The notes below the pieces were generated by a model that made no database searches, was not told the DNA's origin, and saw nothing but the letters and a program-made list of their open reading frames with translations. The translations under genes were made by a program, and so were the position numbers. 25,647 bases of DNA. Origin: a virus. The stretch spans positions 1 to 25,647 of IMG/VR virus record IMGVR_UViG_3300013005_000149; one strand, given 5' to 3'. Shown here in pieces: positions 1 to 25,647 of this stretch (positions are counted from its first letter, which is position 1; each line of letters begins with the position of its first letter).

Positions 1-1568
1 TCGTACACAAGTGGAGTCATGATCAATGGAACATATGGAGAGTATACAGCGCCACACTCTAAGAACTGATTGCCACGGAAACCGAGCAAGATAACGTTCT
101 CAAGCATGTAAGGGTTTTTGTAAACCTTATAACGACTGTTCAACTGACCTACTTTTTGTACACCAAAAGCATACTTCATTGTATCAGCTGCACCATCAGT
201 ATCAGCAGCAAATCCTGGGATAGACTCAAGAATTGTAGCTACAGTTGGAGAAACTACCATGAAGTTAGCACCACCACGCAAAGTACGCTGATGGATAATG
301 TTAGACACTTTCTGAAGTTTGATGCCCAAAGTTTGGAACCAACTCATTTGAGTGTAATAAACACCATCAGTATTGCTTGTGAAAGCAGTCTTTGCAGTGT
401 TGATTTGATTACCAACCTTAGCTGACCAATACTCAACAGTTGGCGCATTTTGAATTAACATATCCAATACTTCCAAATCAATCTCAAGAGAGATGTGCTC
501 AGAAAGAAGGCCAGTCAATTCAGCTTCAGCGTCAAGAGAATGGTAAGCATTCAAGTCTTGTGCAAATTCTGGAGTCCATTGTGCTTTCAACTTACGAGTT
601 TTAGCACTGATTGTTTGAGACTTCATTTGTACGTTGATCTCAGGGATAACGATTGAAGTTGCAGACAAACTGTTTGGAACAGATGGGTTACCAGTTCTAT
701 CTTCAAAATCACCACGACTGTTAAAGTCTGTTTGTTTATTATAGAAAACAGTAAAGTTTGCTGCACCAACTGCAATTGCACCACCTTTGTTAACTATAAA
801 ATTAACAAAAACTCCAGCAGCACTAGATGATAGAGCAGTAAACTGTTGCAAGTTTTCTGCATTACCGATAGCCGCAGTAGAAGAAGAAATAGTAAATGCT
901 CTAACACCCAATTGATTCAATGTAGAATCAATAGAAGATGTAGGGATTGTAAGCTTTGTTAAGCTTTTAGCTACAATTGATGCAGAATAATTACTGTCAA
1001 ATTCAACATCAGCAAAAGTAGCAGATGCAGAAGCAAATCCTGATACAGATGAAGATAGTGAAGAACTAAATTGGTTCAAAGAATAACCAAAACGTCCAGC
1101 ACCATAAAGAGCGCCTTCAGCAAGGTTACCAAAGTTTGCACTTGGAGTACCATAAATAGAATCACCAGCAGTGAAAGGATTCTTAGTGTTTCCGTATTGG
1201 AAATCAAGATAGAATACCAAACCTGCAGGAAGATTCATCGGCTGTACAGAAACGAATTCTTTAGCAGCGATTTGACCAAATACCTTACGTACCAATGGAA
1301 GAGCTACACCAGCCCACTGCTCACCAGTGCCAGGAGTAAAGGTTGCACCACCAGAGTTAAGGCCGCCGTTAGTGTTAGAAGATTCAACTACAAGCTGTTT
1401 AGCTTGGTTTTCGAGGATTACGGCCATGTTGTTGGCGTCGTAATCATGCATGCCCTCGAGAAGGCCTGACTTGCTCCACTTTTTAGCAAGACGCTGAGCA
1501 ACACCATGTTGATCAGAGAAAGCTGTACCAGCGGATTCAGTCAATAAAGATTGTACTAAATTTGCCAT
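1..1568 (-). CDS. gp23: Major capsid protein, T4 gp23-like (3' end cut by window edge)
   Basis: The gene starts at ATG 1568 and stays open to base 1, giving 522 codons and no stop, so it is partial only because the window ends. T4 gp23 has 521 residues, and the last residues here (PLIMTPLVY) correspond to T4 YVALTPL, so roughly 30 or more residues are missing. Family hallmarks are VQPMNLPAG near residue 100, then KLKAQWTPEFAQDL and DAEAELTGLLSEHISLEID in the second half. It forms the hexameric shell lattice. A Ser/Ala/Thr-rich stretch lies between about residues 130 and 250, before the conserved core. T4 gp23 is cut by gp21 after residue 65 at an xxE site; candidates here are LLE38, ILE53 and VVE62 (inference). 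It follows the scaffold gene by 24 nt with no Shine-Dalgarno sequence before the start. Confidence 0.96.
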   Translation of the reverse strand, partial: MANLVQSLLTESAGTAFSDQHGVAQRLAKKWSKSGLLEGMHDYDANNMAVILENQAKQLVVESSNTNGGLNSGGATFTPGTGEQWAGVALPLVRKVFGQIAAKEFVSVQPMNLPAGLVFYLDFQYGNTKNPFTAGDSIYGTPSANFGNLAEGALYGAGRFGYSLNQFSSSLSSSVSGFASASATFADVEFDSNYSASIVAKSLTKLTIPTSSIDSTLNQLGVRAFTISSSTAAIGNAENLQQFTALSSSAAGVFVNFIVNKGGAIAVGAANFTVFYNKQTDFNSRGDFEDRTGNPSVPNSLSATSIVIPEINVQMKSQTISAKTRKLKAQWTPEFAQDLNAYHSLDAEAELTGLLSEHISLEIDLEVLDMLIQNAPTVEYWSAKVGNQINTAKTAFTSNTDGVYYTQMSWFQTLGIKLQKVSNIIHQRTLRGGANFMVVSPTVATILESIPGFAADTDGAADTMKYAFGVQKVGQLNSRYKVYKNPYMLENVILLGFRGNQFLECGAVYSPYVPLIMTPLVY

Positions 1569-2756: not shown

Positions 2757-3239
2757 TTATTTACTACCTAAAAATACTAGCACTTCAACGTTTCCGTTAT
2801 CGAGAGTTTTATAAAAAGTTATATTAGTCGGTATTGTTTGGCCTGAGACTTTTGATTTTGCTTTTTGAGTTGCTGCAAATTGCGCTGCTGATTGGGTTGC
2901 ACCTGTTGCTTTGCCTTGTGCTATTTTTACTCCTTTACCTATCATGCCTTGTAGCATTTCTATAGATACATCAACAGATAATCCACCAGCTGCAGGTTTG
3001 TAACCTTGTTTTTCAATTTGTTTTGCAGCTTTAGAACTTGTAATATCAATATCATCGCTAGCTTGTTGAACTATTTGTTGAGGTTCTTGAGCTTTAGTTT
3101 GTTGAGGACTTCCAAATAAAGATGCCACTGTCATTGCAGCACCAACACCAAGGTCTTTTAAACCTAATTCGTGTATTTCACTTTCTGATAAAAGTCCTGC
3201 TAACTTTTTTAATCTTAATATTTCTAATGAGTTATCCAT
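2757..3239 (-). CDS. Hypothetical protein with LAGL-type prohead-targeting leader
   Basis: I do not recognise a named family for this 160-aa protein. It begins with a leader (LRLKKLAGLLSE|S) ending in an LSE tripeptide at residue 19, of the kind cut by T4-type prohead proteases. A short hydrophobic stretch follows around residues 33-43 (GAAMTVASLFG), then a Gln/Ala/Ser-rich middle and a probable beta-strand C-terminus (NITFYKTL and VEVLVFLG). It sits between the gp21 protease and the gp22 scaffold, overlapping the gp21 stop by one base, so it is co-transcribed with head genes and is a candidate core or internal head protein. In T4, small core proteins 67 and 68 are also encoded close to gene 21. 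Confidence 0.8.
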   Translation of the reverse strand: MDNSLEILRLKKLAGLLSESEIHELGLKDLGVGAAMTVASLFGSPQQTKAQEPQQIVQQASDDIDITSSKAAKQIEKQGYKPAAGGLSVDVSIEMLQGMIGKGVKIAQGKATGATQSAAQFAATQKAKSKVSGQTIPTNITFYKTLDNGNVEVLVFLGSK

Positions 3240-3868
3240 TATTTAATACAGCAAACACCAGATTGAGAACAAATAATGTCTGATATTAACTGATGTATTT
3301 TATTATCTTTATGTTTAACTGTATCGTATTCTAATGATTCTCTAAGTCCACCCATTGGTTTCATGTATGCACCATAGGTTGATGGTGTAGATACAAAGTC
3401 CCAACAAATAAGATCTAAATCATCTTCAACTTGAACAAGACCTTCACCTATTGGAGTAACAGAACCCATAGCTCTAGATGAAATACCAACAGTGATATTG
3501 TTTTTGAATAATTCTCTTAATATATTTCCAGAAGGAGTAGGAAGTATTTCAACATCGCCATATAAATCTTTACCTTCCCAGAAAAGTCTTATTATATTAT
3601 GACTAACATTCTTAAGGTTAATAATAGAAGATTCTGGGTGATCTAGTTCACCTAAAGCTCTATTCTCTGAAATTGGTCCAGCAATGTACTTCTGTACTTG
3701 CACAAATAAAGTTTGATAAGGATATATTCTTTTATTTGCATTAGGTTTATCAGTAGCCTGAACAAGTCCAGACACTACCATATTACCATTAGCTAAACGA
3801 CGAACTTCAGTCAAAGACTGCTGGATTGGTTGAAAAGCACTATATTCTATTAAGAGTTGTTTGTTCAT
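3239..3868 (-). CDS. gp21: Prohead core protease, T4 gp21-like
   Basis: This is the serine protease that matures the prohead by cutting scaffold, core and capsid proteins after (L/I)xE. At 209 aa it matches T4 gp21 (212 aa). It begins MNKQLLIE|Y, directly comparable to T4 gp21 MNEPQLLIE|T. Conserved blocks are NKRIYPYQTL (45-54), ALGELDHPE (71-79, probable catalytic His77; T4 has GELNHP) and VGISSRAMGS (127-136, probable catalytic Ser130 or Ser131). The LIE at residue 8 and LRE at residues 175-177 are possible self-processing sites (inference). A Cys-containing tail (GVCCIK) is an oddity. It lies one base after the 440-aa gene and overlaps the next gene by one base. Confidence 0.94.
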   Translation of the reverse strand: MNKQLLIEYSAFQPIQQSLTEVRRLANGNMVVSGLVQATDKPNANKRIYPYQTLFVQVQKYIAGPISENRALGELDHPESSIINLKNVSHNIIRLFWEGKDLYGDVEILPTPSGNILRELFKNNITVGISSRAMGSVTPIGEGLVQVEDDLDLICWDFVSTPSTYGAYMKPMGGLRESLEYDTVKHKDNKIHQLISDIICSQSGVCCIK

Positions 3869-5192: not shown

Positions 5193-5206
5193 GCTAATAA
5201 ATATTA
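5193..5206 (-). promoter_or_regulatory. Recurrent AT-rich box upstream of the 440-aa gene
   Basis: The sense strand reads CTAATATTTATTAG, a perfect 6-bp inverted repeat (CTAATA/TATTAG) with a 2-nt centre. It fills nearly the whole gap between the 43-aa gene and the 440-aa gene and ends about 2 nt before the ATG. Confidence 0.45.
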
Positions 5207-12054: not shown

Positions 12055-12080
12055 TAAAAAAATTTATTTTAGAATAAATT
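12054..12080 (-). terminator. AT-rich intrinsic terminator after the 514-aa gene
   Basis: A perfect 8-bp inverted repeat AATTTATT/AATAAATT with a 4-nt loop (12061-12068 and 12073-12080) is followed on the minus strand by a run of T residues (12060-12054). It begins within the stop codon of the 514-aa gene. The stem has no G-C pairs, so it would be weak. Its position between one gene's stop and the next gene's promoter supports a terminator role. Confidence 0.55.
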
Positions 12081-13623: not shown

Positions 13624-13626
13624 TAT

Positions 13627-14262
13627 TTATTTTGCTTTTTTACGCTTGATAACACTTTCCATCATAGATTTAAGAGCCATGTCTAAATCTTCTGCATCAC
13701 CTGCAGGTACTTCTTGTGTACCATCTGGAAGTTCATCCATATCATGCTCACCGTTATGATATTCATGATAATTCTTTGAAGCCTGATTAATAAAGTTTTC
13801 TGCATTAGTAATATGATCTTGTATCCAAGCTGGAATATCTTTTTCATCTTGGCCTAACATATTCATCAATTGACTTGCTGAGCTTATAATAGACTTAAGA
13901 CTATTTTGAGCCATTGATACTTCATGATCTTGACCTTCAGATTCCTTCATGTACTTTGATTTTCTCATAAAATCTCTTTGTGCGTCAGCTTTGGATTCAA
14001 ACCCATCATTTGATTTTTGACTTTTTCCTGATTTAGGATTCCATGTCCAATAGTATTTATCACCTTCTTTTTCAATCTTTAAAGTTCCTCCACCACTATC
14101 ATCATCTTCTTCTTCGTTTTTAGCACGAAGTGCTGCAAAGTCTGCAGCAGTAATTTTATCTTTAGGTTCGGCAGCTCCTGCTATTCTCTCTTGATTTCCA
14201 GGAAGATCTTTTTCATTTAACTCTTTCATTAAAAGAGCTTTAAAGAATGAAATGTTAGTCAT
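13627..14262 (-). CDS. Acidic internal-type protein with targeting leader
   Basis: I chose the ATG at 14262, giving 211 aa. The longer reading frame would run deep into the preceding gene, whose stop ends at 14264, and this start gives a typical leader, MTNISFFKALLMKELNE|K (LNE at 15-17). After an acidic stretch (EEEDDDSGGG) comes a small beta-type unit (KIEKEGDKYYWTWNPKSGKS). A helical C-terminal domain follows (MAQNSLKSIISSA, then PAWIQDHITNAENFINQA). This has a pattern (W-I/V-Q-x-x-I-x-x-A) that I recall from many T4-like phage virion-associated ORFs. No enzymatic motif is visible. It is a candidate virion internal protein in a run of similar genes. Confidence 0.75.
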   Translation of the reverse strand: MTNISFFKALLMKELNEKDLPGNQERIAGAAEPKDKITAADFAALRAKNEEEDDDSGGGTLKIEKEGDKYYWTWNPKSGKSQKSNDGFESKADAQRDFMRKSKYMKESEGQDHEVSMAQNSLKSIISSASQLMNMLGQDEKDIPAWIQDHITNAENFINQASKNYHEYHNGEHDMDELPDGTQEVPAGDAEDLDMALKSMMESVIKRKKAK

Positions 14263-14263
14263 T

Positions 14264-14551
14264 TTATTTTTTCTTTTTAGATTTACTTGCTTTTTTCCAT
14301 AAACTTTTATCTGCTTTTCTTGCTCCACCTTTACCTGTTACAAATGAATTTACTCTGCCCATTGCCCATTGGTGTTGACCAACTCCAGGACGGTGTCCTG
14401 TTTTCCAAGCTGCCAAACCTTTAGCATAAACACTTTTAAGTATTGATTTAGATATACCAGTAGACTTTGCTTTGTTTGCTAGTGCTTTTTCTATTTCAGC
14501 GTCATACTCAAGAATGAGTAATTGTTTTAATATATCTAATTTATTGATCAT
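14264..14551 (-). CDS. DUF5824-like small basic protein with ILE leader
   Basis: I chose the start at 14551 (95 aa) because it follows the preceding stop by 10 nt and yields a clean leader, MINKLDILKQLLILE|Y. An upstream ATG at 14581 would overlap the previous gene. The body contains KSTGISKSILKSVYAKGLAAW, then KTGHRPGVGQHQWAMGRVNSFVTG and KADKSLW. This is a signature I associate with DUF5824, a small family common in phages and also found appended to larger phage proteins. Its function is unknown. The tail is very basic (KKASKSKKKK), compatible with nucleic-acid binding. If processed after ILE15, the mature product would be about 80 aa. Confidence 0.82.
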   Translation of the reverse strand: MINKLDILKQLLILEYDAEIEKALANKAKSTGISKSILKSVYAKGLAAWKTGHRPGVGQHQWAMGRVNSFVTGKGGARKADKSLWKKASKSKKKK

Positions 14552-14561
14552 TTCTTTTTTT

Positions 14562-14936
14562 TTATCTAATTTCCTTAACACTTTTTTTAGCGTCTTCTAA
14601 TGAATTAAATGCTTGTGAAGGATTTCCTGGATTTGCAGTTTGTGTAAAAGTATACACGTAAAATTTACCATCTTTATTTGTAATGGCATAATTTTTTGCA
14701 GATCCAATTGCTCTAGACACAATATCAACTAAAGGAGACGAACTATCAATATTAAATTTTTTAATAAATTCTTCTTTATTATTAATGTCTGTCCATTTTC
14801 CTTCAAATGAGGATTTAACTGGTGCTTGATCTCCTCCGGATAAAAATTGGTTTATATCAAATTCATCTAATTGAGATTCCTTAATTATACCAGCTAATTG
14901 CTGCATTCTTTTTACTTCATTTAATTGTTTTTTCAT
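14562..14936 (-). CDS. Small protein with LAGI-type leader
   Basis: This 124-aa protein starts with a leader containing RMQQLAGIIKE|S (IKE at 18-20), the same motif type as in the 160-aa protein near gp21 and the end of the scaffold protein. The body is a small alpha/beta domain: SFEGKWTDINNKEEFIKKF, then KNYAITNKDGKFYVYTFTQ and a final helix SLEDAKKSVKEIR. No family was recognised. It overlaps the 91-aa gene by 4 nt (ATGA) and lies in a run of genes that all begin with prohead-type leaders. Confidence 0.78.
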   Translation of the reverse strand: MKKQLNEVKRMQQLAGIIKESQLDEFDINQFLSGGDQAPVKSSFEGKWTDINNKEEFIKKFNIDSSSPLVDIVSRAIGSAKNYAITNKDGKFYVYTFTQTANPGNPSQAFNSLEDAKKSVKEIR

Positions 14937-15208
14937 TTCTTTTTCTTTTTATCTAGTTTATTTTTAACTATCTCTCTAGTCCTATCCATTTTCCTTGCAT
15001 AAGCAGGATCATCTTTACGGTTAAAATTAGCTTGTTGGTTTAATGAGCCAGTTATTTTGCTCATGTTACCTTTTCTTGTTCTAATCAACCAATTAGCTAA
15101 CTTTTCTGCTGGCAACTCTTTAAACTTACCTTTTGCATCTGGTGCATTAGAATGATGAAACTTAAGTCTCTCTTCAACTAACTGTTGTAATAGTTCTTGT
15201 AGTTTCAT
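14933..15208 (-). CDS. Small basic protein with LVE leader
   Basis: This 91-aa protein begins MKLQELLQQLVE|E, a leucine-rich amphipathic leader ending in LVE12. The body has LPAEKLANWLIRTRKGN, then MSKITGSLNQQANFNRKDDP and a Lys-rich helical tail (KNKLDKKKKK). I have seen this pattern (AxWLIxxRxGNxxKIxGSLxQQxNFN) in phage ORFs, but it carries no function I know. The 4-nt and 1-nt overlaps with its neighbours indicate one polycistron. It is probably an internal head protein by leader type (inference). Confidence 0.78.
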   Translation of the reverse strand: MKLQELLQQLVEERLKFHHSNAPDAKGKFKELPAEKLANWLIRTRKGNMSKITGSLNQQANFNRKDDPAYARKMDRTREIVKNKLDKKKKK

Positions 15209-15741
15209 TACTTTTCTTTTTTACCAAATCTTTTTTCGTAAGCAGAAGTTGCTGCACTCTTCTTAGTCTTGTACTTCTTAGTCTTACCCTTATCTGAATA
15301 ATCTGCGTCCCACTTACCATATGCTGAAGGATCATCGGACTTTAACTTTTTTACTCTATCAATTTCTTTTTTCATTGCTGCTGCATCTTTAGTAAGATAA
15401 GCAGGATTAACCTTATTTTTCTTTTTTGCTTCACTTACTCTAACACAGTTAGGAACCATATTACCTTTTTTTCCTTTTTTCATTGGATTTTTTGGATCTT
15501 TTCTATATCCTTTCCAACAAGCTTCTTCTAAAGGATTTAAATCTAATTCTTTTTCTATATCGGTAATGTCATCATATCCTAAATATTCTAAATCTTTTTC
15601 TAAAGTATAAGGGGTTTTTGATACGGCTCTAGATATTTGATCTCTAATTTCAGCATTTCCATTATTAAAAGCCTGTAAAATATTCTGATAGTGAATATCT
15701 GTTTTAGCCATTTCTAATAATATATCTTTAAGCTTTATCAT
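15208..15741 (-). CDS. Modular protein with MIKL...LLE leader and CWKGY/VPNC module
   Basis: This 177-aa protein opens MIKLKDILLE|MAK, identical in layout to the T4 IP capsid-targeting leader (Glu at residue 10). Three parts follow: a helical segment (15-70), a Cys module ACWKGYRKDP...GNMVPNCV (74-100) widely seen in cyanophage and other T4-like ORFs, and a DPSAYGKWDADYSD...KTKKSAATSAYEKRFG unit (137-173). LEE73|A and VSE104|A precede the second and third parts, as if the junctions were protease sites. Its function is unknown. An AT-rich box lies about 5 nt before the ATG, and a perfect TATAAATA lies further upstream. Confidence 0.82.
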   Translation of the reverse strand: MIKLKDILLEMAKTDIHYQNILQAFNNGNAEIRDQISRAVSKTPYTLEKDLEYLGYDDITDIEKELDLNPLEEACWKGYRKDPKNPMKKGKKGNMVPNCVRVSEAKKKNKVNPAYLTKDAAAMKKEIDRVKKLKSDDPSAYGKWDADYSDKGKTKKYKTKKSAATSAYEKRFGKKEK

Positions 15742-15803
15742 ATGAATATAAATATCTGCCTATCAATTAAAGTTGGGAGGTTAATATATCTATCATATTT
15801 ATA
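15742..15803 (-). promoter_or_regulatory. Late promoter region upstream of the leader-bearing gene run
   Basis: The minus strand carries TATAAATA at 15803-15796, an exact T4-type late promoter box, about 55 nt before the ATG at 15741. A second element, AGATATTTATA (around 15746-15757), is one of the recurrent boxes and sits only about 5 nt from the ATG. An AACCTCCC stretch lies between them. The exact TATAAATA in the correct orientation makes this the best single late-promoter candidate in the window. Confidence 0.6.
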
Positions 15804-16340
15804 CTACTTCCAAGTAATTCCATTCCAATATTCAAACCCCTGTAATTTGTTTTTATAGTTGAAAATATCAAAATAATCAGCTATATATAAATACTCATAG
15901 TCATTTATAAGTTTTTTTAGTAAGTAATAAAATGAAAGAGTTCCATAAGACTTTTTACTTTTTGTTTCATTCATGACAGAGAATAATACTTGATCTTCTA
16001 TATAGATTATCCTACCCCAAAAAAGATCGTCAAAAAAAAAGTCTTCAAATTTTCCGTGATTATAAAGTTGTAGGTCTGGTGGGGTTTCTATTTGTTTGTT
16101 TTCTGTATGTCCTGATATTTTTATTTTAGATAGTTGATTTTTTCTTTTACTAGAAATTTCTTGTATTTTTAGTCTTGAAGATTGTGTTTGATACCAGTGT
16201 TCCTGATTATCTTTATAATAAACAATCCATCCATTTTCAAACATGGATTTAGCAGATTCATTTTCTCTTTCAGCTTCTAAATAAATTAGAGGATATTTAC
16301 CATTATAAATACTTAAAGAATGATCAAATATTAGTTTCAT
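15804..16340 (-). CDS. Acyltransferase-like (GNAT/aminoacyl-transferase type) conserved phage protein
   Basis: This 178-aa protein has no prohead leader. The C-terminal part is YGTLSFYYLLKKLINDYEYLYIAD, followed by YKNKLQGFEYWNGITW. It resembles the final strands of GNAT-fold arginyl/leucyl-type transferases (LYLGY...YK.RF.GFEWW) and an ORF class in T4-like phages. I see no diagnostic acyl-CoA loop, so the enzyme class is a suggestion from pattern memory. It overlaps the upstream 233-aa gene by 17 nt, so the pair is translated together. A rounded, hydrophobic- and Tyr/Phe-rich composition sets these two apart from the Lys-rich neighbours. Confidence 0.72.
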   Translation of the reverse strand: MKLIFDHSLSIYNGKYPLIYLEAERENESAKSMFENGWIVYYKDNQEHWYQTQSSRLKIQEISSKRKNQLSKIKISGHTENKQIETPPDLQLYNHGKFEDFFFDDLFWGRIIYIEDQVLFSVMNETKSKKSYGTLSFYYLLKKLINDYEYLYIADYFDIFNYKNKLQGFEYWNGITWK

Positions 16341-17025
16341 TATCTAATTCATTATATATTTTAGATCTTTCTTTATTTGATTCACCAGATTCTAAGTCAG
16401 TATGATCATAATTAAAAACATCAGTATCAGGTGTAACCCACCTACTGTTTCTTTCTGCAGTCCAAGAAGTAGTATTATATTTTCTATTTATAACAATATC
16501 TTGTTTAACTGTAAATGACGGATCATGAATAATTAATCTATTATTAGGTTGTATTGCAAAATTTCCATTATCCATTTGAATAAAATGTCCGCATTTATGT
16601 TGAGAAGGAAATTCACTTAATCCAAAATCTGTATCGCTCATATCATCAGAACTTCCCCAATCTAAGGTAAATAAATATTTTCCTGAATATTGAATTCTTC
16701 TTCTTGATGTGAACTTACAAGTCTTATTTTTTAATATAGGAAAACAAGTTGCACCTACATGATATGTAAATGAATCCCACAAAACAAGTTCATCTAACTC
16801 TTGTTGAGGAGCATCTTCTTTCCAACAAAAGGCATGAATTGGCATTCTCCACCAGAGTCCACCATCTTCCATCATAAAATGAAATAATGGTGCTTGAGCA
16901 GGTATTGACGACATGCCAAATATATAGCATGGAAATTTTTTATCAAAAGAATCTTCTTGATTTCTTAGAAAGTTTCCTCTAATAAAAGATTCAACAATTG
17001 GGATTGGGGTATTTAGATATGACAT
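16324..17025 (-). CDS. Conserved T4-like phage protein of unknown function
   Basis: This 233-aa globular protein is rich in Trp, Phe, His and Cys. Characteristic segments include NFLRNQEDSF, FGMSSIPAQAPLFHFMMEDG, WRMPIHAFCWKED, LWDSFTYHVG, GKYLFTLDWG, HKCGHFIQMDNGNFAIQPNNR and a PSFTV segment. I recognise this arrangement from a conserved unannotated protein of T4-like cyanophages and relatives, whose role I do not know. There is no signal peptide, membrane segment or prohead leader. Conserved His/Cys residues (HAFCW and HKCGH) could bind metal, but that is a guess. It is paired by overlap with the transferase-like gene downstream. Confidence 0.8.
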   Translation of the reverse strand: MSYLNTPIPIVESFIRGNFLRNQEDSFDKKFPCYIFGMSSIPAQAPLFHFMMEDGGLWWRMPIHAFCWKEDAPQQELDELVLWDSFTYHVGATCFPILKNKTCKFTSRRRIQYSGKYLFTLDWGSSDDMSDTDFGLSEFPSQHKCGHFIQMDNGNFAIQPNNRLIIHDPSFTVKQDIVINRKYNTTSWTAERNSRWVTPDTDVFNYDHTDLESGESNKERSKIYNELDNETNI

Positions 17026-17050
17026 TTTATAACCTTTTTATAAATTTATA

Positions 17051-17368
17051 TTATTTTTCTCTTATTAATAGTTCACCTAATACTTCTAAACGTCCAACTT
17101 CACGTTGAAATTCAATTTGAGTCATATTTAAGGATATCTTTTTATATGTCTGCTCAAATTCTTTTTTAGCTGCTTCTTTATCAAACTTACCTTCAGTAGC
17201 TTTTTTATAATATGGAGCTTTAACTTTAAAATGATGCCAAGTTAATAAAGATAATCCACCTTTTTCTTCAGCGGTAGCTGCTATTTTAGCTGCGCCTTTA
17301 GCACGTGTTTGAGCAAAGGTTTCAAAGCTTTCTTTAGCTTCAGTTAACAGTTGAATAAGTTTTATCAT
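17051..17368 (-). CDS. Small protein with MIKL...LTE leader
   Basis: This 105-aa protein begins MIKLIQLLTE|AKES, with Glu at residue 10 followed by Ala, the same P1-P1' pair as the T4 internal proteins (IAE|A). The body is helical and Lys/Ala-rich, with a GGLSLLTWHHFKVKAPYY segment (about 37-54). No family or catalytic motif was recognised. It overlaps the preceding 171-aa gene by 4 nt, and that gene carries an almost identical leader, so the two probably share expression and fate. A candidate injected internal protein (inference). Confidence 0.78.
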   Translation of the reverse strand: MIKLIQLLTEAKESFETFAQTRAKGAAKIAATAEEKGGLSLLTWHHFKVKAPYYKKATEGKFDKEAAKKEFEQTYKKISLNMTQIEFQREVGRLEVLGELLIREK

Positions 17369-17880
17369 TTGTTTTTATTTTTAACAGGAGCATAACCAGA
17401 ACCATACGGGGCTGCTTTGCCTGATTGTGGATCTGCTGTTTCTTTTACTTTATTTAAACGTTTAGTTTTTTCTTTTGATGCTTCTTTACGAGATTCAATA
17501 TAATCTAATCCATTTTTTAATCTAGCTTTTACTTCAGAGTCTTTAGCTTTACCGTAAGCTGCTCTGACTCTTTGGTGTATTAAATTTATAATCTGTGACT
17601 GTCTAGCATGTGATTTAGATTTAAATTCACTTTTAGATAGTGTATCTTTTATATCTTTAACTGTTTTAAATTTTACACTAACAGTATCTTTAGGATCTTC
17701 ATCTGTGTATAATCTGCGGTCTGATCCCTTTGGCTTTTTACCACTACCTTTTTTAGGATCCGCTTCAGTTATATCAGGATCATTAGTCCAGGTATCAGAA
17801 GCTTTGTATCTTACTTTTTTAACCATATCGGATCTATATGGCGGATACATTTCTAATAATATATCTAATAGTTTAATCAT
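17365..17880 (-). CDS. Basic modular protein with MIKL...LLE leader
   Basis: This 171-aa, strongly basic protein begins MIKLLDILLE|MYPPY, a near copy of the leaders of the 177-aa and 262-aa proteins. An unstructured Lys/Gly/Asp segment (25-55) is followed by a module RRLYTDEDPKDTVSVKFKTV, then helices with SKSHARQSQIINLIHQRVRAAYG and LKNGLDYIESRK. The C-terminal tail is Gly/Lys/Pro-rich. I recall the DEDPxDTVSxKF unit from other phage ORFs without a known role. The basic charge and leader suggest a DNA-associated internal protein (inference). Confidence 0.8.
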   Translation of the reverse strand: MIKLLDILLEMYPPYRSDMVKKVRYKASDTWTNDPDITEADPKKGSGKKPKGSDRRLYTDEDPKDTVSVKFKTVKDIKDTLSKSEFKSKSHARQSQIINLIHQRVRAAYGKAKDSEVKARLKNGLDYIESRKEASKEKTKRLNKVKETADPQSGKAAPYGSGYAPVKNKNK

Positions 17881-17881
17881 A

Positions 17882-18754
17882 TTACCACTTTCTACATGAC
17901 CAATATCTAGCTTTCCATCTTGGTCCTGGATTAGTGTCGCAATGATGTCTTGCTCTAAAACTTTTTCTCCTTTCAGGATTATTCTTTTTTATCTTTACTC
18001 CTTTCTGTCCAAAGTTAACTTTAACAACATTTCCTTTGGCATTCTTTACGTACACCTTAAACTTTTTAATATCGCCGGCCATTGGTTTTCCTAGTTGTAC
18101 TTTTCTACCTTTGTACTCTGCTTCTTGTAAAGAGTTAGCATGATCTTTTATATATTCAGCTAAACATTGAGGACAAAATTCTCCCTCATTTAATTCTTCA
18201 AGCCCTGCTTTAATTAGTTTATCGTAGTATTTAGGATCTTCTTTAATATGATCTAAAGCTATTTTTAAAGCTATTTTAGGATCATCAGTATGCTCCATCT
18301 CAACTTCAATACCTTTTTTTATTTGGGAAAGTTTATCTTTATCTATTTTAGATTCTTTTATACCTGCTATGTGTCTACCTTGATACTTATCCTGAAGATA
18401 GTTAACCATTTTTGCATTCATATTAAAATCAAGCTCTAATTTTTTATCATTAGGTTCTTTATCTATAGCTTTAGCTATTGTTTGCATAAAACCATTTTCT
18501 ACATTATTATCTACAATAGCAGCCATTTTATCATCAATATCAAGACGATCTAACCATGTTTGTGATTTTTGACCGTCTGGTTTTGTAACGGCTGCTTTTA
18601 TAAACTGGAATGTTGTTTTTGCTGCGCCATATCCAGGAACAAAATCTAATATTGCATCTACAGCAACTCCAGCTATTTTATCAGTCTTTTGTTTTTTTGC
18701 AATAGATTGTATAGCTTGTTTTAAATCTCCATATGTCTCAAGATTATTTTCCAC
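17882..18754 (-). CDS. Multi-domain phage protein with Cys/His-rich C-terminal domain
   Basis: This 290-aa protein is built from phage-specific modules. Residues 20-95 contain a hydrophobic loop AVDAILDFVPGYGAAKTTF and a WLDRLDIDDKMAAIVDNNVENGF stretch. Residues 140-186 (IKKGIEVEMEHTDDPKIALK, then IALDHIKEDPKYYDKL) resemble DUF5661. Then come a CPQC pair (194-197) and a final domain, 213-290 (YKGRKVQLGKPMAGDIKKF, then RRKSFRARHHCD and PGPRWKARYWSCRKW). The final domain is one I recognise from many T4-like phage ORFs and could bind zinc. An internal HIAGIKE|S (128-135) resembles the LAGI leaders, and LNE191|G and LQE211|A sit at domain junctions. Function is unknown. Confidence 0.83.
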   Translation of the reverse strand: MENNLETYGDLKQAIQSIAKKQKTDKIAGVAVDAILDFVPGYGAAKTTFQFIKAAVTKPDGQKSQTWLDRLDIDDKMAAIVDNNVENGFMQTIAKAIDKEPNDKKLELDFNMNAKMVNYLQDKYQGRHIAGIKESKIDKDKLSQIKKGIEVEMEHTDDPKIALKIALDHIKEDPKYYDKLIKAGLEELNEGEFCPQCLAEYIKDHANSLQEAEYKGRKVQLGKPMAGDIKKFKVYVKNAKGNVVKVNFGQKGVKIKKNNPERRKSFRARHHCDTNPGPRWKARYWSCRKW

Positions 18755-19035
18755 TATGGTAAATTTTGAGTCCTAGTATCATATACTTTTAATACCTGTT
18801 GTAATGTTGGAGATATAGATCCTCTTCCTAGGTCATCTAGAATAGCCTTAATTATAGTTGCAAAAGATTGAATTTCTTTAGAATCAGCCCCATTTAATTT
18901 AGGTATTGTAATAGAAGAAAGGTCTCTAAAATATTTTTGTAGTTCAGATTTTGTATCTACTATATTTTTTTCTTTAGGAAGGTCTTCCTCTTTTAAAAGA
19001 TTAGTTACATGCTTTTTAAATTCTGGCGTATTCAT
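18754..19035 (-). CDS. Small helical protein with LLKE leader
   Basis: This 93-aa, largely helical protein begins MNTPEFKKHVTNLLKE|ED, a leader ending in LKE16. The remainder (SELQKYFRDLSSITI, EIQSFATIIKAILDDLG) looks like a helical bundle without catalytic signatures. No family was recognised. It overlaps both neighbours by one base, consistent with strict translational coupling between the Dps-like protein upstream and the modular protein downstream. Confidence 0.76.
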   Translation of the reverse strand: MNTPEFKKHVTNLLKEEDLPKEKNIVDTKSELQKYFRDLSSITIPKLNGADSKEIQSFATIIKAILDDLGRGSISPTLQQVLKVYDTRTQNLP

Positions 19036-19418
19036 TATTTTAGGAATTTAAGTTTATACTTAGTAGATTCTAGAAGATTAACTACATTGTCAATCTCATT
19101 CTGGATATATGAATCTTGTGGAACTTTTGTTCTAATCATTTCTACAAACTTACAAAGACCTTCGAAGTAAAGAATCGCATTATCATCTTCTTTTATCTGA
19201 TTTGCCATTGCATATCCACGAAGAATGCCGTATTTTCCTTGATATGACTCAACTAAACCGTCGATCAAATCTACAATCTCTTCGTAATACTTTTGCAAAG
19301 CTTTGTGAGCGGCAAAAGAGTTTGTCTGTAAATGGTAGATGTGAGCCTGATTACGGCTTTGCATCAATGTTCCTATAAATAAAGCGTATGGTTCCATTAG
19401 TCTTGTTTTGGTTGCCAT
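19035..19418 (-). CDS. Dps/ferritin-like protein
   Basis: This 127-aa four-helix-type protein carries a Dps-like metal-site pattern: His26, His38, Asp53 and Glu57. The spacings of 12, 15 and 4 residues are exactly those of the Escherichia coli Dps ferroxidase ligands His51, His63, Asp78 and Glu82. The surrounding text (RNQAHIYHLQTNSFAAHKAL and YYEEIVDLIDGLVE) also follows the Dps pattern. Dps proteins oxidise and store iron, and protect or compact DNA. At 127 aa it is shorter than bacterial Dps (about 160-170), and I see no basic N-terminal tail or prohead leader. Related short proteins occur in other phages, often as unnamed DUFs. It overlaps the neighbouring genes by 22 and 1 nt. Confidence 0.78.
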   Translation of the reverse strand: MATKTRLMEPYALFIGTLMQSRNQAHIYHLQTNSFAAHKALQKYYEEIVDLIDGLVESYQGKYGILRGYAMANQIKEDDNAILYFEGLCKFVEMIRTKVPQDSYIQNEIDNVVNLLESTKYKLKFLK

Positions 19419-20251
19419 CTAAGCTCACCAGATTTAACATCTGCATCAAATATTTCTTTAGGCCATTGCCATAATTTTCCTTTAAATTTATCAGATTCTA
19501 AGTAAACCTTATCGCCTTCTATTTTTTGAATTGTTAATACTTGATTATCTTTTTTTACAAATTTATCTCCAACTTTTAAATTATCACCTATATTTAAGCT
19601 AGATTCTTTAATATCTTTTTTTTTATCTTCTTCTTTCTCAACATTTTTCTTGCTCTTTTCAATCTTTTCCATCTTACTCATAAGATCGTCGATTTGAGAT
19701 GCAAGTTTAGCAATATGTTCTTTATGTTGAGAAGCATTTTTAGGATCTTCTTTTGCCATATCAACGTGCTCTTTACGCTTCTTTTCAAGATGGTCGATAG
19801 TCTTTTTTAACTTATCTCCAACTTTACCTTTCTTTTCTTCAAGTTGAAAAGATTCGTCCATATATTTTTTGTATGCTTCTGCTGCTATTTCTTGAGCTTG
19901 AGAAGCATCAGCAGTAACACTTATAACATCTTCCATATTAACATTTAGAGGAGCAAGTCCTTCTAAAGGATTCAATTCTTTAATTAATCCAGCTGCGTCA
20001 AGATTATCTACAGGTCTAAGAACTACATACATCTTAGTAGGATCATAGTCTTCTTTCTTAACCTTTTTAGGAAGGCCCTTATGTTTAGTTGCAGCGAAGT
20101 CTTTTACATCGCCTTTTTTCATTGATTTAGCCATTTCTTTTGCTTTTCCTGATGCTTGTGATGGTTTCATATCTCCTTTTTGAAGGGCACGAACTATGCC
20201 CATTAATTTTTGTTGTTGTTTAGATGCAGCTTTTTCTGATATATTATGCAT
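19397..20251 (-). CDS. Modular protein: DUF3008-like unit, coiled coil, SH3-like unit
   Basis: This 284-aa protein starts with SEKAASKQQQKLMGIVRAL and continues KSMKKGDVKDFAATKHKGLP (residues 5-61), resembling the small DUF3008 module. An alpha/beta unit (74-125, MYVVLRPVDNLDAAGLI) follows, then LEE139|K, a long charged coiled coil (145-212), IKE216|S, and a C-terminal beta unit (NIGDNLKVGDKFVKKDNQVL, then KVYLES) like a small SH3/KOW barrel. No enzymatic motif was seen. The placing of [LI]xE tripeptides between units is as in other modular proteins here. The AT-rich box lies about 25 nt before the start, and the 3' end overlaps the Dps-like gene. Confidence 0.8.
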   Translation of the reverse strand: MHNISEKAASKQQQKLMGIVRALQKGDMKPSQASGKAKEMAKSMKKGDVKDFAATKHKGLPKKVKKEDYDPTKMYVVLRPVDNLDAAGLIKELNPLEGLAPLNVNMEDVISVTADASQAQEIAAEAYKKYMDESFQLEEKKGKVGDKLKKTIDHLEKKRKEHVDMAKEDPKNASQHKEHIAKLASQIDDLMSKMEKIEKSKKNVEKEEDKKKDIKESSLNIGDNLKVGDKFVKKDNQVLTIQKIEGDKVYLESDKFKGKLWQWPKEIFDADVKSGELRWQPKQD

Positions 20252-20272: not shown

Positions 20273-20287
20273 ACTAATAAATATCTG
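20273..20287 (-). promoter_or_regulatory. Recurrent AT-rich box upstream of the 284-aa gene
   Basis: The sense strand reads CAGATATTTATTAGT, overlapping the last codons and stop of the 192-aa gene and lying about 25 nt before the next start. It shares AGATATTTATT with the sites upstream of gp22 and the 285-aa gene. Confidence 0.45.
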
Positions 20288-20852
20288 TTTTCCTAAACTC
20301 CTGTATCTTTTCTTTGAGCTGTTTATATATATGAGTCTTATCTCCGCCTTGCCAACTTTCAATATCTCCTTGTTCAGTAACAAAAGTATCTTTTTCCTCA
20401 AGCCATGAATCTAAAGCCTGTTCAAACTCTTCAAGGCTAGCATTCTTATTCATATTAAGAATATTCTTCTCATATTGCTCATACTTACCTTCTAGCTTAA
20501 GTTTAGCTTCCATATCAATGACACAGTTCAAACATACTTTGTGTACTGAATACATCTTCTTGTTTAGTTCATTAGCCTTCATAGGCTTCTTACAACTAGG
20601 ACAAGTAAGTGGTAAAGATACTAGATGTTTGAACTTATCTAGCTTGGTAATAGACTGTTTGATACCGTTTTTAATGGTCCATTTTTTTCCACCTTCTTCC
20701 CAAGTATCTCCTTCTTTATGTTCTTCTATTGTAGCTTCCCAACCTCCAAGTACCTGAGTTCTATCACCAGTATTTCCGGTGATAATGTTTCTCATCCTTT
20801 GAACTTCACTTTTCTTAAACTCTTTTTTTAACGTAGACTCTTTTGGTATCAT
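20274..20852 (-). CDS. Conserved T4-like zinc-finger protein
   Basis: This 192-aa protein has KKSEVQRMRNIITGNTGD near the start, then KEGDTWEEGGKKWTIKNGIK. A four-cysteine cluster follows (CPSCKKPM around 84-91 and CLNC about 23 residues later), which should form a zinc ribbon, and then a helical C-terminal region. I recognise the combination from a conserved, functionally unassigned protein of T4-like cyanophages and relatives. A nucleic-acid or protein-binding adaptor role is plausible but unproven. Its last codons overlap a copy of the AT-rich repeated box that precedes the next gene. Confidence 0.8.
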   Translation of the reverse strand: MIPKESTLKKEFKKSEVQRMRNIITGNTGDRTQVLGGWEATIEEHKEGDTWEEGGKKWTIKNGIKQSITKLDKFKHLVSLPLTCPSCKKPMKANELNKKMYSVHKVCLNCVIDMEAKLKLEGKYEQYEKNILNMNKNASLEEFEQALDSWLEEKDTFVTEQGDIESWQGGDKTHIYKQLKEKIQEFRKTDIY

Positions 20853-20867
20853 AACAGTATTTTTATT

Positions 20868-22127
20868 TTATAAGTTAGAAATGTCTACAATCCAAATATT
20901 AGGATCTTCTCCATTATTAACTAATCCAGAAAGTCTTGTATTACCAGCTAGAAGATCATAATCAGAATTAGAAAATTTGACTGCTATTGGCATTTCTATT
21001 TGACCTTTTTTAAACGCAGATTGGAATCTTTGTTTTTTTTCTTTTTCTAGACTATTAAAATTTAAGTCTACATTTCCAAGGACATCTTTTATTTTAGAGT
21101 ATTTTGTTATATATCCTTTTTTAGATATCTTCTCCCAATTATCTTTACCTATTTTTTTAAGTTCTGGATATCGAATTGCTTCTTCCCATTCTACATTAAA
21201 ATTAGGTTTAGAATATTTAACCTCATTTATTCTAAATTTACTTAATATATCTTTTGTTTTATTAATATCTTTATGCATTACTGCAATACCACCTAGTGTT
21301 TTCCATGGAGCTAGATTTGTCCAATAGTCATCTATCAATATAGATTTTTTTGGGTCAGTTATCATCTTTAAATGCTTATTTCCGGACTCGGCGAATATAA
21401 CTTCTTTTGGTTGTGGACTTAAATTATCTTTAATCCATTCTAATTTACCTTCTTCAGCATATTCAAATTGACCAGGACTAGTTAAGATTATAGGATTATA
21501 TTTACCTATTATAGACCATAGTTCTTGGCCTCCAGGCATCCATTGCATTTTACTCCAGTATGTAATACCTACTTCGTCTACTGCTTTAGTTAGGTACTCA
21601 TTTGCTTTTTCTGGTTTATATTGTTTTCTGTATTCTGAGGGGGACATGTTATAAAAATATTCAAACCTTGCATCAAAGTCGCATAGAACTCCATCCATAT
21701 CACAATAGATTTGAATACCACTATTACTTTCTACTTCATATATTTGTTTAAGAGTAGGAAGAAAAGACTCATAAATAAGATCATTAGTCTTACCATAATC
21801 TCTCATCATTATACCTGCCAAAGCATTAGCTTGATTTTCTATATTAGAACCAGTTTCTCCAGCATTATTATATAATTTACCAAGCTCATTTTGTCTATGG
21901 TGAACTAATTCATGGCATAAGGTTCTAAGTATATCTGCTAGGTTTCTATTACCTATATAAACGTCTAAGTGTCTTTTATTTGGATCATATTGTCCAAAGC
22001 TTCTTTTTTCAGTAGCCCATTCACGATCATTTATAAAACTAGTTGTAGGAAGCTTATCTATATCAAGTTTGCTTTTTACAAACTGTATAAAATCCTCTAT
22101 TATATATTGTCTTTGTTCTAGTGTCAT
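20868..22127 (-). CDS. Fusion: SprT-like metallopeptidase-like domain, HAD phosphatase, ParB-like domain
   Basis: This 419-aa protein has three parts. Residues 1-118 contain CHELVHHRQ (71-79; His72, Glu73, His76) and Glu98 in NIENQANALAG, a zinc-metallopeptidase pattern of the SprT/minigluzincin sort. Residues 138-297 are a HAD-type phosphatase: DMDGVLCDFD (143-152), LTSPG (215-219), a Lys (about 251) and ILIDDYWTN (263-271), as in 5'(3')-nucleotidases. Residues 360-419 look like a ParB/sulfiredoxin-fold unit (QIEMPIAVKF and YDLLAGNTRL). Each part has its key residues, so all could be active. It follows the nucleotidyltransferase with an ATGA overlap. The fusion suggests a nucleotide- or end-processing role combined with proteolysis, but the substrate is unknown. 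Confidence 0.82.
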   Translation of the reverse strand: MTLEQRQYIIEDFIQFVKSKLDIDKLPTTSFINDREWATEKRSFGQYDPNKRHLDVYIGNRNLADILRTLCHELVHHRQNELGKLYNNAGETGSNIENQANALAGIMMRDYGKTNDLIYESFLPTLKQIYEVESNSGIQIYCDMDGVLCDFDARFEYFYNMSPSEYRKQYKPEKANEYLTKAVDEVGITYWSKMQWMPGGQELWSIIGKYNPIILTSPGQFEYAEEGKLEWIKDNLSPQPKEVIFAESGNKHLKMITDPKKSILIDDYWTNLAPWKTLGGIAVMHKDINKTKDILSKFRINEVKYSKPNFNVEWEEAIRYPELKKIGKDNWEKISKKGYITKYSKIKDVLGNVDLNFNSLEKEKKQRFQSAFKKGQIEMPIAVKFSNSDYDLLAGNTRLSGLVNNGEDPNIWIVDISNL

Positions 22128-22714
22128 TTCATTATTTTCAATAGTCTTCCAAAGACATCTTTAGCTACTCCCTTATTATATGCTGAGTCTGGGATGAATT
22201 TAACAAACTCTTCAAAATTGCCGGCTTTAATTGTATCTCTCATTTGAGTTGCAGATATTCTACCAAATTGATCTGGTATAGTTTCTTTTCTAACTCTATT
22301 AGGAAATCTTTTTTGTATAGAATCAAAGTATCCAATATCTTCAACTTCTTCGGCCCCGCCTGCAACATATACTGGATCAACATCAGGATTCTCTGCCATG
22401 AACGCAAAGATGTCTTTTATTGGTGTAGACTCTTTAGATATTGATACATCTATTTTAGGATTTGGTTCTGCTTTAAGATACTCTTGCCAAATATAAAGAG
22501 AATCTTCAGGAGTTATACCATACTTAGTAACATTAGATATAATAACATATACTTTATTAATATAATTTAAAGATGCTAAATACTTTGTAGCTTCGAAATG
22601 TCCTTTGTGAGGAGGCTTAAATTTACCAGGATAAAAACAAGGTCCTACATCTGGTGATGCTTCTCTTAGTATATCTTCTGCTATTTGTCTTCCTAGTTGT
22701 TCGAAATTAATCAT
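22124..22714 (-). CDS. HxGH-type nucleotidyltransferase with prohead-type leader
   Basis: This 196-aa protein has a nucleotidyltransferase core of the NMNAT/PPAT/cytidylyltransferase superfamily: FYPGKFKPPHKGHFEATKYL (27-46, HKGH at 36-39) and ISATQMR (153-159), the ISxTxxR signature that binds the nucleotide triphosphate. Such enzymes transfer AMP or CMP to a phosphorylated acceptor such as NMN, phosphopantetheine or a sugar phosphate; the acceptor cannot be read from sequence. Before the core is a leader MINFEQLGRQIAEDILRE|A (LRE18), suggesting packaging into the head. It is coupled by ATGA overlaps to the P-loop kinase upstream and the HAD fusion downstream, so the three probably act together. 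Confidence 0.88.
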   Translation of the reverse strand: MINFEQLGRQIAEDILREASPDVGPCFYPGKFKPPHKGHFEATKYLASLNYINKVYVIISNVTKYGITPEDSLYIWQEYLKAEPNPKIDVSISKESTPIKDIFAFMAENPDVDPVYVAGGAEEVEDIGYFDSIQKRFPNRVRKETIPDQFGRISATQMRDTIKAGNFEEFVKFIPDSAYNKGVAKDVFGRLLKIMK

Positions 22715-23499
22715 GGTGTAATAAATGATTTTGCTTTAGACACAACACTTTCAGTACTATCGTCTTTTAGAGACTCAACTTGTTTTTCTATATCTTCAAA
22801 CTGTCCAGCTAAGATATCTATTTGTTTATCAACTAGCTCTTTAGATTTTGCTATTTCTTCAGGAGATTTTTGTTTAGTAGGATCTTTTTTAAATGTAGAC
22901 TTAAATTGACCAGAAGATAATAGTTCAGAAAAGAATTCTTTTAGCTTTCCAGAATTATACGCCTTCATAAATGCGCCAACCATCTTCTGTTCTGCAGGAC
23001 TAACCTCTGATTGTACTAATAAAAAGTTATCTCCAAACATACTTTTATATGTAGAGATATTTTTATATACATTATTCCAACTTGATAATACTCCAACAGT
23101 TGGTACCTTTCTTTCTCTCTTAAAGTTCCTCAAAAAACTTACAACCGGATTGGTATAAACCATGATCATCATTATGTCATAGCCTGAGGATTCTATATTC
23201 TTTACTCTGTCTACATTTGTTCCTGTAGTATCATAAAGAAAATTCTTACCACTTTTTATAGTATTAGGTAGATCAACCTTCTCTATATAACTAGACGCCT
23301 TACCTAAACTGTTATACATAGGACTATCTTTATCTTCTACATACTTGTCAGCATTAAGTTCTTGCCAGCCTGATTTTTCAAGGTCCGGTCTAAGTTGCCT
23401 AACTATATTAGATTTGCCTGCTCCGGCTCCGCCGGCCATGACAATAGCCTTATTACCATTTTCAGGTTGTTCTTTCAATAAATCTAGTAGCTTAATCAT
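22711..23499 (-). CDS. P-loop kinase (zeta-toxin/Pnk type) with prohead-type leader
   Basis: This 262-aa protein begins MIKLLDLLKE|QPEN (Glu10), then a P-loop GGAGAGKS (23-30), ELNADKYVED (47-56), YDTTGTN (89-95) and an Arg-rich lid-like segment RNFKRERKVP (124-133). This set is typical of zeta-toxin or polynucleotide-kinase-type phosphotransferases, which phosphorylate small nucleotide sugars or nucleic-acid 5' ends. The C-terminal 100 residues are helical and charged and may bind a partner. No epsilon-type antitoxin gene is adjacent, which argues against a classic toxin-antitoxin unit. The ATG is preceded by a repeated AT-rich box about 7 nt away and overlaps no upstream gene. Confidence 0.88.
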   Translation of the reverse strand: MIKLLDLLKEQPENGNKAIVMAGGAGAGKSNIVRQLRPDLEKSGWQELNADKYVEDKDSPMYNSLGKASSYIEKVDLPNTIKSGKNFLYDTTGTNVDRVKNIESSGYDIMMIMVYTNPVVSFLRNFKRERKVPTVGVLSSWNNVYKNISTYKSMFGDNFLLVQSEVSPAEQKMVGAFMKAYNSGKLKEFFSELLSSGQFKSTFKKDPTKQKSPEEIAKSKELVDKQIDILAGQFEDIEKQVESLKDDSTESVVSKAKSFITP

Positions 23500-23516
23500 A
23501 CTACCAATAAATATTA
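23500..23516 (-). promoter_or_regulatory. Recurrent AT-rich box upstream of the kinase gene
   Basis: The sense strand reads TTAATATTTATTGGTAG between the nuclease stop and the kinase ATG, about 7 nt from the ATG. It would begin the kinase/nucleotidyltransferase/fusion transcription unit if it acts as a promoter. Confidence 0.45.
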
Positions 23517-25318: not shown

Positions 25319-25324
25319 TAAAAC

Positions 25325-25585
25325 TAATGTCGTATACTCAGGCTCTATGCCATAGCTTGGTTAAATTCCATGAGTGAGTTTTAGAATGAGTAAGCTATAC
25401 GACTACCAGGAGTAAAGACTAATATATGCTTCAGGTATACAAAAATAGTTGGTAGTGAAAGCCTAAAATAATATCGGCCATATCCGACGGTTAGGTCGGT
25501 TAAAGGGTTTTAGGTATAAGCTACAGATGAAAAACAAAGTCAATTACACTCTAAAAAAAGGCTAAATACCTTTAAACTAGCTATT
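25325..25585 (+). ncRNA. Structured leader RNA (candidate cis-regulatory RNA or ncRNA)
   Basis: This non-coding stretch looks richer in G+C than its surroundings and contains several exact inverted repeats. Stem 1 is GTCGTATA (25329-25336) with TATACGAC (25396-25403), extendable by CTCA/TGAG across a 5-nt bulge. Stem 2 is ACTACCA (25402-25408) with TGGTAGT (25450-25456). Stem 3 is GCCTAAAA (25461-25468) with TTTTAGGT (25508-25515, one G-U pair), enclosing CCGAC/GTCGG (25484-25488 and 25495-25499). A competing TCGG/CCGA pairing (25474-25477 and 25484-25487) would exclude that last hairpin. No known RNA class was recognised. The rest (25520-25585) is AT-rich and without clear structure. A 16-codon reading frame (25327-25377) overlaps stem 1 and could be a leader peptide instead. 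Confidence 0.55.
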
Positions 25586-25647
25586 ATGCAAGTAGAAGAT
25601 TTTCAAATAGAAGGAGATAAAATAACAGAGGAACAGTTAAATGCACA
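25586..25647 (+). CDS. 5' end of a plus-strand gene (partial)
   Basis: The ATG at 25586 opens a frame with no stop to the window edge (MQVEDFQIEGDKITEEQLNA). This is the only plausible plus-strand gene, transcribed divergently from the primase and preceded by the structured leader and a promoter-like site. No Shine-Dalgarno sequence precedes it, as elsewhere here. Twenty residues are too few to assign a product. Confidence 0.55.
   Translation, partial: MQVEDFQIEGDKITEEQLNA

Follow-up and report, generated by a model that had tools for sequence, protein, structure and literature searches.

Are the three overlapping enzyme genes at one locus of a T4-like phage ordinary metabolic genes, or do their products travel in the head and enter the host with the DNA? 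The locus lies in the IMG/VR virus record IMGVR_UViG_3300013005_000149, of which a stretch of 25,647 nucleotides (the window) was analysed. Three minus-strand open reading frames at 20868-23499, both junctions being 4-nt ATGA overlaps, encode a P-loop kinase (K), a nucleotidyltransferase (N) and a protein that joins zincin, HAD and ParB-like modules (the fusion; Table 1). Pfam matches to Gp23 and Peptidase_S77 well above the cut-offs identify the window as a fragment of a T4-like phage, whose hosts probably belong to the Bacteroidota. What happens in the first minutes of infection is decided by ejected head proteins, which are known in detail only for few phages. The favoured reading, which we regard as probable, is that the trio forms internal, ejected cargo and is partly made as a cleavable polyprotein; packaging in the head is very likely, and cutting at the linkers of the fusion is likely.

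Packaging is suggested first by the N-termini of K and N. T4 gp21 cleaves after L/I-x-E, and in the 10-residue leader of the T4 internal protein IPIII targeting depends on residues 4 and 7 and processing on residues 8 and 10 (PMC9026906). The K leader MIKLLDLLKE matches the IPIII rule at each position, and all 32 homologues, some no more than 24% identical, keep its Glu10. The N leader is modelled as a helix of lower predicted local distance difference test score (pLDDT), and most other members of the N family also carry leaders. Across the window, [LI]xE ending at residue 8-20 occurs in 20 of the 32 genes versus 4.7 expected (maximum of 12 in 2000 shuffles), and a stricter T4-like leader pattern in 9 genes versus 0.41 expected. 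The prohead-type leaders that a first-pass annotation of this DNA had noted in K (LLKE/Q, the slash marking the predicted cut) and N (ILRE/A) are thus present and exceed chance by shuffling. Judged by the sequence features of T4 internal proteins, the phage possesses the gp23 capsid and the S77 protease, and K and N possess the leader; the fusion's own N-terminus lacks one of T4 type. An IIE at residue 11 of the fusion was considered as a leader and rejected, being unconserved in relatives and within a confidently folded helix.

Cyanophage homologues of N link such leaders to virions. S-CREM2 gp154, an N homologue with the leader MKNFSSFLTE/A, was detected in purified virions by 3 unique peptides (PMC10665884). 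The relation of N to gp154 is remote (~18% identity, hhalign E=4e-5) and is bridged by Kyanoviridae members in loci L002 and L004; leaders of cyanophage N homologues (MKSFSQFLTE/T, MKSFFQFLSE/A, MKLFNQFFKE/A) have a form nearly identical to that of T4. The cyanophage cytidyltransferase family that includes gp154 (T4-GC 190) therefore resembles N in homology, in its T4-type leader and, for gp154, in virion location, whereas its members are not fused to zincin or HAD. Among 219 S-CREM2 proteins the strict leader has 5 carriers, 4 of which are in the virion proteome, namely a S-adenosylmethionine (SAM) hydrolase, a small protein, an APH-like kinase and gp154 (one-sided Fisher p=0.0016 for proteins not classed as structural). 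In the accessible parts of that paper (PMC10665884) the leader and packaging are not connected, and cleavage of gp154 is not reported. In S-CREM2 (loci L115/L116) the SAM hydrolase is gp6 and the APH-like kinase gp14, both with strict T4-type leaders; its virions contain in addition gp12, which is annotated as Cas9 and has FMAE/A further in, and gp156, a Pol-beta nucleotidyltransferase.

If the three genes were instead ordinary cytoplasmic metabolic genes, the resemblance of their N-termini to leaders would be coincidental. The brevity of the motif, the lack of a proteome of this phage and the position of the cluster after replication genes (primase, exonuclease) are compatible with that view. 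It is nevertheless very improbable, given a leader glutamate kept among such divergent kinases, leaders common to unrelated genes of the window, an N homologue found in virions, and, as described below, modules that occur both free and fused and a separate directional motif in front of K.

The second line of evidence concerns the fusion, whose polyprotein appearance, with prohead-protease motifs between domains, had escaped the first-pass annotation. [LI]xE lies at residues 120, 131 and 302, in both interdomain linkers and not inside the domains, and the model shows low-confidence linkers at about 120-139 and 300-312. Across K, N and the fusion, leaders and linkers hold 7 of the 8 [LI]xE sites, a value reached by 3 of 20000 shuffles, one of the 7 being the unconserved IIE11 of the fusion, which is discounted. 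The motif in the zincin-HAD linker is kept in every distinct fusion among relatives, usually twice, and the E120 and E131 sites are both retained in nearly all zincin-HAD fusions of the window's clade. [LI]xE stands 4-20 aa before the HAD motif in 17/17 distinct fused HADs and in 32/36 free HADs. At the other end of the HAD domain, the C-terminal module of the fusion is swapped in relatives exactly at the E302 site. By comparison, the density of [LI]xE outside modelled domains is only 1.65-fold higher than inside them, a low figure because unmodelled modules dilute it, so that the argument is carried by the junction-specific tests.

The same modules are also found as free genes. The ParB-like tail, which follows FRINE/VKYSKPNFN in the window, is 69% identical over 117 aa to the start of gene L201:14521, where it follows the leader MKLTQLILE/GIVYSKPNFN. 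DUF6934 is fused after KFRINE/ in locus L033 and free as MIKLISILKE/SSYPF in L199 (62% identical), and HAD, too, exists in both forms, in chains behind such a site and as a leader-bearing gene of its own. In the 1306-aa chain of L089:1485-5402, which holds N, DUF6934, an unknown stretch, superoxide dismutase and zincin in this order, LNE occurs at 197, 349, 695, 906 and 1057, each at a module border. Fused and free versions of one module are the strongest evidence that these chains would be cleavable. The dismutase of the L089 chain is a complete Fe/Mn enzyme (PF00081 and PF02777) placed between nucleotidyltransferase and zincin, and the L201:14521-15774 gene, which has a basic C-terminus, combines behind its leader a ParB-like module with one for a GNAT acetyltransferase and one for a Pol-beta nucleotidyltransferase.

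Alternatively, the set could be delivered with the DNA and its chains processed by the embedded zincin rather than by the prohead protease, in the way that Iyer et al. proposed embedded-peptidase processing for P1 DdrB (PMC5512222). Phage polyvalent proteins, which combine MPTase, ParB, GNAT and Pol-beta domains, have been likened to polyproteins with embedded peptidases (PMC5512222), and zincin, its HExxH...E invariant, is the one component present in all 48 of the gene slots compared below. The linkers, however, bear the motif of the prohead protease, free versions of the modules bear a T4-type leader that this protease removes, and K and N are separate chains, each with its own leader; processing by the zincin is accordingly improbable. 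The proteins described here share with the polyvalent proteins (PMC5512222) a multidomain, mosaic build, zincin, ParB, GNAT and Pol-beta content and predicted delivery with DNA; they differ in cut sites that fit the head-maturation protease and in modules that also occur free with capsid-targeting leaders.

What the cargo would do depends on the identity of its enzymes, and the domain calls of the first-pass annotation (P-loop kinase, HxGH/ISxTxxR nucleotidyltransferase, HAD) agree with profiles, motifs and models. K has the Walker A motif GGAGAGKS, scores 38.6 bits against Pfam Zeta_toxin (gathering cut-off 22.3) and keeps G28, K29, D51, D90, R128 and R130 across 32 homologues. Its profile fits PezT/zeta, seryl-tRNA kinase (PSTK) and Pnkp structures (including Pnkp1) about equally, and no single substrate class is favoured. 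K resembles the zeta/PezT toxin kinases in this score, in Walker A and in an Asp in the matching place; it differs from them in its leader and in co-occurring with N, zincin and HAD, and its neighbours are the exonuclease and N, with no adjacent antitoxin gene (epsilon/PezA). N carries GKFKPPHKGH and ISATQMR, its AlphaFold model has a pLDDT of 89 with NadD and PPAT as top PDB matches (E 9e-8), and G30, P34, P35, G38, H39, W76, Y79, P98, R159 and P175 are invariant in 34 homologues. While the fold and the HxGH and ISxTxxR motifs are shared with the NadD/CoaD adenylyltransferases, W76, Y79 and P98 are N's own invariant residues, and N falls far under the equivalog cut-offs of NadD (18.5 vs 112 bits), NadM (12.6 vs 181), NadR (14.4 vs 341) and CoaD (18.4 vs 103). 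N may, though this is doubtful, adenylylate a phosphorylated small molecule, for instance nicotinamide mononucleotide (NMN).

In the fusion, the zincin gave weak Pfam matches to DUF6782, M91, M78 and MPTase-PolyVal and no significant match to PDB sequences. The DxDGV, K and DD residues of the HAD domain are invariant in 34 homologues, and its best PDB match is a deoxyribonucleotidase-like protein; it reached 18.0 bits against Pfam NT5C, under the cut-off of 24.8, as against its match to phrog_2643 (Table 1). The ParB-like tail had no Pfam ParB match, and its model is of low confidence. All four of K, N, zincin and HAD would seem to be active, because their catalytic residues are kept in all aligned homologues.

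These profiles bear on two proposals for the function of the set. One, compatible with packaging, is a kit that rescues nicotinamide adenine dinucleotide (NAD) from host NADases, K converting nicotinamide riboside to NMN and N converting NMN to NAD, with HAD trimming by-products. The nearness of the N fold to NadD/PPAT with its GxFxPxH/TxGH and ISxTxxR motifs, the annotation of N as NadR in phage immuto, where NAD synthetase is encoded 6 kb away, and the existence of phage NAD-restoring pathways (NARP1, PMC12774641) would suit it. Set against this are the low equivalog scores of N, the resemblance of K to zeta/PSTK rather than to nicotinamide riboside kinase, and the 14 of 41 N-bearing slots that have no K. 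The NARP1 and NARP2 pathways are defined by Adps plus Namat or NAMPT plus NMNAT, and no NAMPT, Adps or Namat match was found among the scanned genes of the window, the rest of the genome not having been searched for them. Rescue of NAD is thus unlikely. The other proposal, a kit of kinase, phosphatase and nucleotidyltransferase that repairs nucleic-acid ends or tRNA against tRNA-cutting host defences, is very doubtful. The K profile does match Pnkp1, and in slots lacking K its place is often taken by pol-beta-type nucleotidyltransferase genes; the HAD domain, however, is apparently of NT5C type and not a Pnkp phosphatase, N is not a covalent ligase-type nucleotidyltransferase, and no ligase match was obtained among the cluster proteins to complete a Pnkp-type set of kinase, phosphatase and ligase. 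For the first-pass annotation, which had read the cluster as enzymes delivered with the DNA and likened it to end-repair sets, this means that delivery stands as the best reading, in line with the N homologue in S-CREM2 virions, and that the Pnkp-type comparison is not supported, the HAD being apparently of a 5'(3')-deoxyribonucleotidase type and the K profile fitting three kinase groups alike. Any one particular substrate for the cluster enzymes is doubtful at best.

Relatives show how stable the set is. Loci retrieved via K have the order primase, exonuclease, K, N, zincin, HAD and a gene termed G throughout. To avoid selection by K, loci were also fetched by the upstream exonuclease alone. 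Of the 48 with a complete slot, all contain zincin, 41 contain N, 39 HAD and 27 K, counts that are non-independent, many loci being related and some contigs recurring. Every slot with K also has N, zincin and HAD, so that the trio, whose failure to co-occur in relatives would have told against the initial proposal, is in fact syntenic across related loci. N may be separate from a zincin-HAD(-ParB-like) chain, fused to zincin with HAD separate, or part of an N-zincin-HAD chain, and gene borders within the set therefore shift freely. As K is missing from 14 of the 41 N-bearing slots, K, N and HAD do not form an obligate pathway; more probably, each works on host nucleotides or cofactors alongside the others. 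Searches with the trio proteins gave Flavobacterium phage immuto as the closest isolate, and in it primase, exonuclease, another gene, N-zincin, HAD and a homologue of the window gene 20274-20852 follow each other. Where K is lacking, the slot often holds relatives of the immuto gene gp89, in some cases with a leader (MISLVSIFKDLILE/GGNVF), and gp89 has the look of a pol-beta-type nucleotidyltransferase by motif. Such genes take the place of K at L147:2822, L149:1963, L152:9854 and others, several with leaders.

Expression of the cluster may be late. Among 49 distinct loci, 29 have ATATTTAT in forward orientation just before K and 1 has it in reverse; before the exonuclease gene that precedes K it occurs in 0 of 48. 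In a 162-kb relative it precedes genes 32 times forward versus 3 times reverse, head-block genes included, which makes it a candidate late promoter element of these phages. On the minus strand of the window it is found in short gaps before late genes, e.g. at 5196, 7168, 15748, 20276 and 23506. The T4 late promoter TATAAATA was rejected for K, as it is not positioned upstream of it, and a terminator hairpin in the exonuclease-K gap, which visual inspection of one clade had suggested, was dropped after a strict search found it in 1 of 31 gaps.

Under the favoured reading of ejected, partly polyprotein-derived cargo, the genes would be transcribed late, as the upstream motif suggests, and the N-terminal capsid-targeting leaders would anchor K and N in the core of the prohead, for which the comparative sequence evidence is strong. 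The S77 protease would then cut after [LI]xE, which would take off the leaders and separate the zincin, HAD and ParB-like parts of the fusion at the linkers, again a step with strong backing from sequence comparison. The products would stay with the DNA in the head and enter the host at injection, as the virion homologue and the T4 precedent indicate. To judge from domain identity, kinase, nucleotidyltransferase, nucleotidase and metallopeptidase could then act on host nucleotides or cofactors and on proteins before any phage gene is expressed.

Several points weigh against this sequence of events. The main gap is that the fusion has no conserved N-terminal leader; it may enter the prohead by an internal linker or with a partner, and where other clades have N and zincin in one chain, the leader of N would serve for both. 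In the clade of loci L096-L108, N starts without a leader. The [LI]xE motif is short and common, low pLDDT in linkers indicates flexibility and not cutting, and cleavage at leaders and linkers is a prediction. N alone has a virion-detected homologue, by way of the 3 peptides, and a virion proteome of this phage or of any relative with the whole set was not found. A looser leader pattern is more weakly associated with S-CREM2 virions (4/9, p=0.03), the S-CREM2 leaders were already known to the analyst before that test, and p-values are overstated by non-independent homologues.

The nearest known counterparts are T4 IPI-IPIII and Alt (PMC9026906), with which the present proteins share leaders of 10-19 residues with hydrophobics at 4, 7 and 8 and L/I-x-E, the gp23/S77 machinery and predicted ejection. 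T4 cargo consists of single proteins, whereas here metabolic-type enzymes are found, several of them fused with the same cut motif between domains.

The coordinates and ATGA joins given for the three genes in the first-pass annotation were confirmed, and they are collected with the other features in Table 1.

Table 1 Features of the window and the basis of their assignment (a slash marks a predicted cut)
Feature	Position	Strand	Basis
Zincin-HAD-ParB-like fusion, 419 aa, predicted cleavable polyprotein	20868..22127	-	Model: two well-folded domains, low-confidence linkers between
Zincin domain, residues 1-119, H72 E73 xx H76 ... E97	21771..22127	-	Catalytic residues invariant in 31 homologues
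Linker 1, predicted prohead-protease sites IYE/S (E120) and IYE/V (E131)	21735..21770	-	pLDDT 52-66; sites kept in relatives
HAD domain, residues 139-298, probable NT5C 5'(3')-deoxyribonucleotidase type	21234..21713	-	phrog_2643 E=3.9e-26; PDB 3bwv
Linker 2, predicted site FRINE/V (E302), HAD/ParB-like border	21222..21236	-	Only [LI]xE after residue 131; pLDDT 42
ParB-like module, residues 303-419	20871..21221	-	GNTRL-type pattern alone; free relative in L201
N, HxGH nucleotidyltransferase, NMNAT/PPAT fold, 196 aa	22124..22714	-	Model, PDB matches, invariant residues
N leader, residues 1-18 ending ILRE, second IAE at 13	22661..22714	-	Both [LI]xE sites of N lie here
K, P-loop kinase of zeta-toxin/AAA_33 group, 262 aa	22711..23499	-	Pfam Zeta_toxin, structure-profile matches, invariant residues
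K capsid-targeting leader MIKLLDLLKE, predicted cut after E10	23470..23499	-	Hydrophobics at 4, 7, 8 and E at 10, like T4 IPIII (PMC9026906)
ATATTTATT, putative late promoter element, 7 nt upstream of K	23506..23514	-	Directional motif
Major capsid protein, start at 1568, 3' end beyond window	3..1568	-	Pfam Gp23, 227.7 bits vs cut-off 24.4
Prohead protease, predicted cutter of [LI]xE sites	3239..3868	-	Pfam Peptidase_S77, 79.4 bits vs cut-off 27
Leader-bearing gene, MIKLKDILLE/M, function unknown	15208..15741	-	Leader scan
Leader-bearing gene, MIKLIQLLTE/A, function unknown	17051..17368	-	Leader scan
Leader-bearing gene, MIKLLDILLE/M, function unknown	17365..17880	-	Leader scan

T4-type or 'LAGIxxES' leaders were seen in the short window genes at 2757-3239, 14562-14936, 15208-15741, 17051-17368, 17365-17880, 18754-19035 and 11368-11742, which are probably additional head cargo. 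By eye, genes of the region 12079-20251 have modules in common with cyanophage and pelagiphage proteins; among them, 14264-14581 (DUF5824) shares a module with the C-terminal part of HTVC008M gp130, and the C-terminus of 17882-18754 (DUF5754) shares one with HTVC008M gp131 and Melnitz gp18. Past the primase gene, 25320-25600 on the plus strand is AT-rich with several helices, a fold z-score of only -1.45 and no Rfam match, as was true of the window as a whole. A near-identity search of a phage collection with the window gave no match, and PADLOC no meaningful one; a scan of bacterial genomes gave only 7 matches, all to contigs of metagenome-assembled genomes, so that no cellular homologue was found by that route.

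Perhaps the cluster reflects a general platform in T4-like phages of Bacteroidota, an idea toward which the balance tips only slightly. Modules would alternate between leader-tagged genes and linker-cut polyproteins, the head-maturation protease would yield the same mature enzymes from either form, and the resulting kit of kinase, nucleotidyltransferases, nucleotidase, metallopeptidase and, in one phage, superoxide dismutase would be injected and, at entry, reset the nucleotide and redox metabolism of the host. Exchange of modules between leader-tagged genes and chains cut by the head protease was not found described in the open-access literature searched. To our knowledge, polyprotein processing is a feature of RNA viruses of eukaryotes and not of phage heads. 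If the favoured reading is true, the capsid protease would gain a second role in polyprotein processing, and a readable address tag together with a readable cut motif would allow injected enzymes to be predicted from many genes that count as 'unknown' in T4-like phages of the sea and of fresh water.

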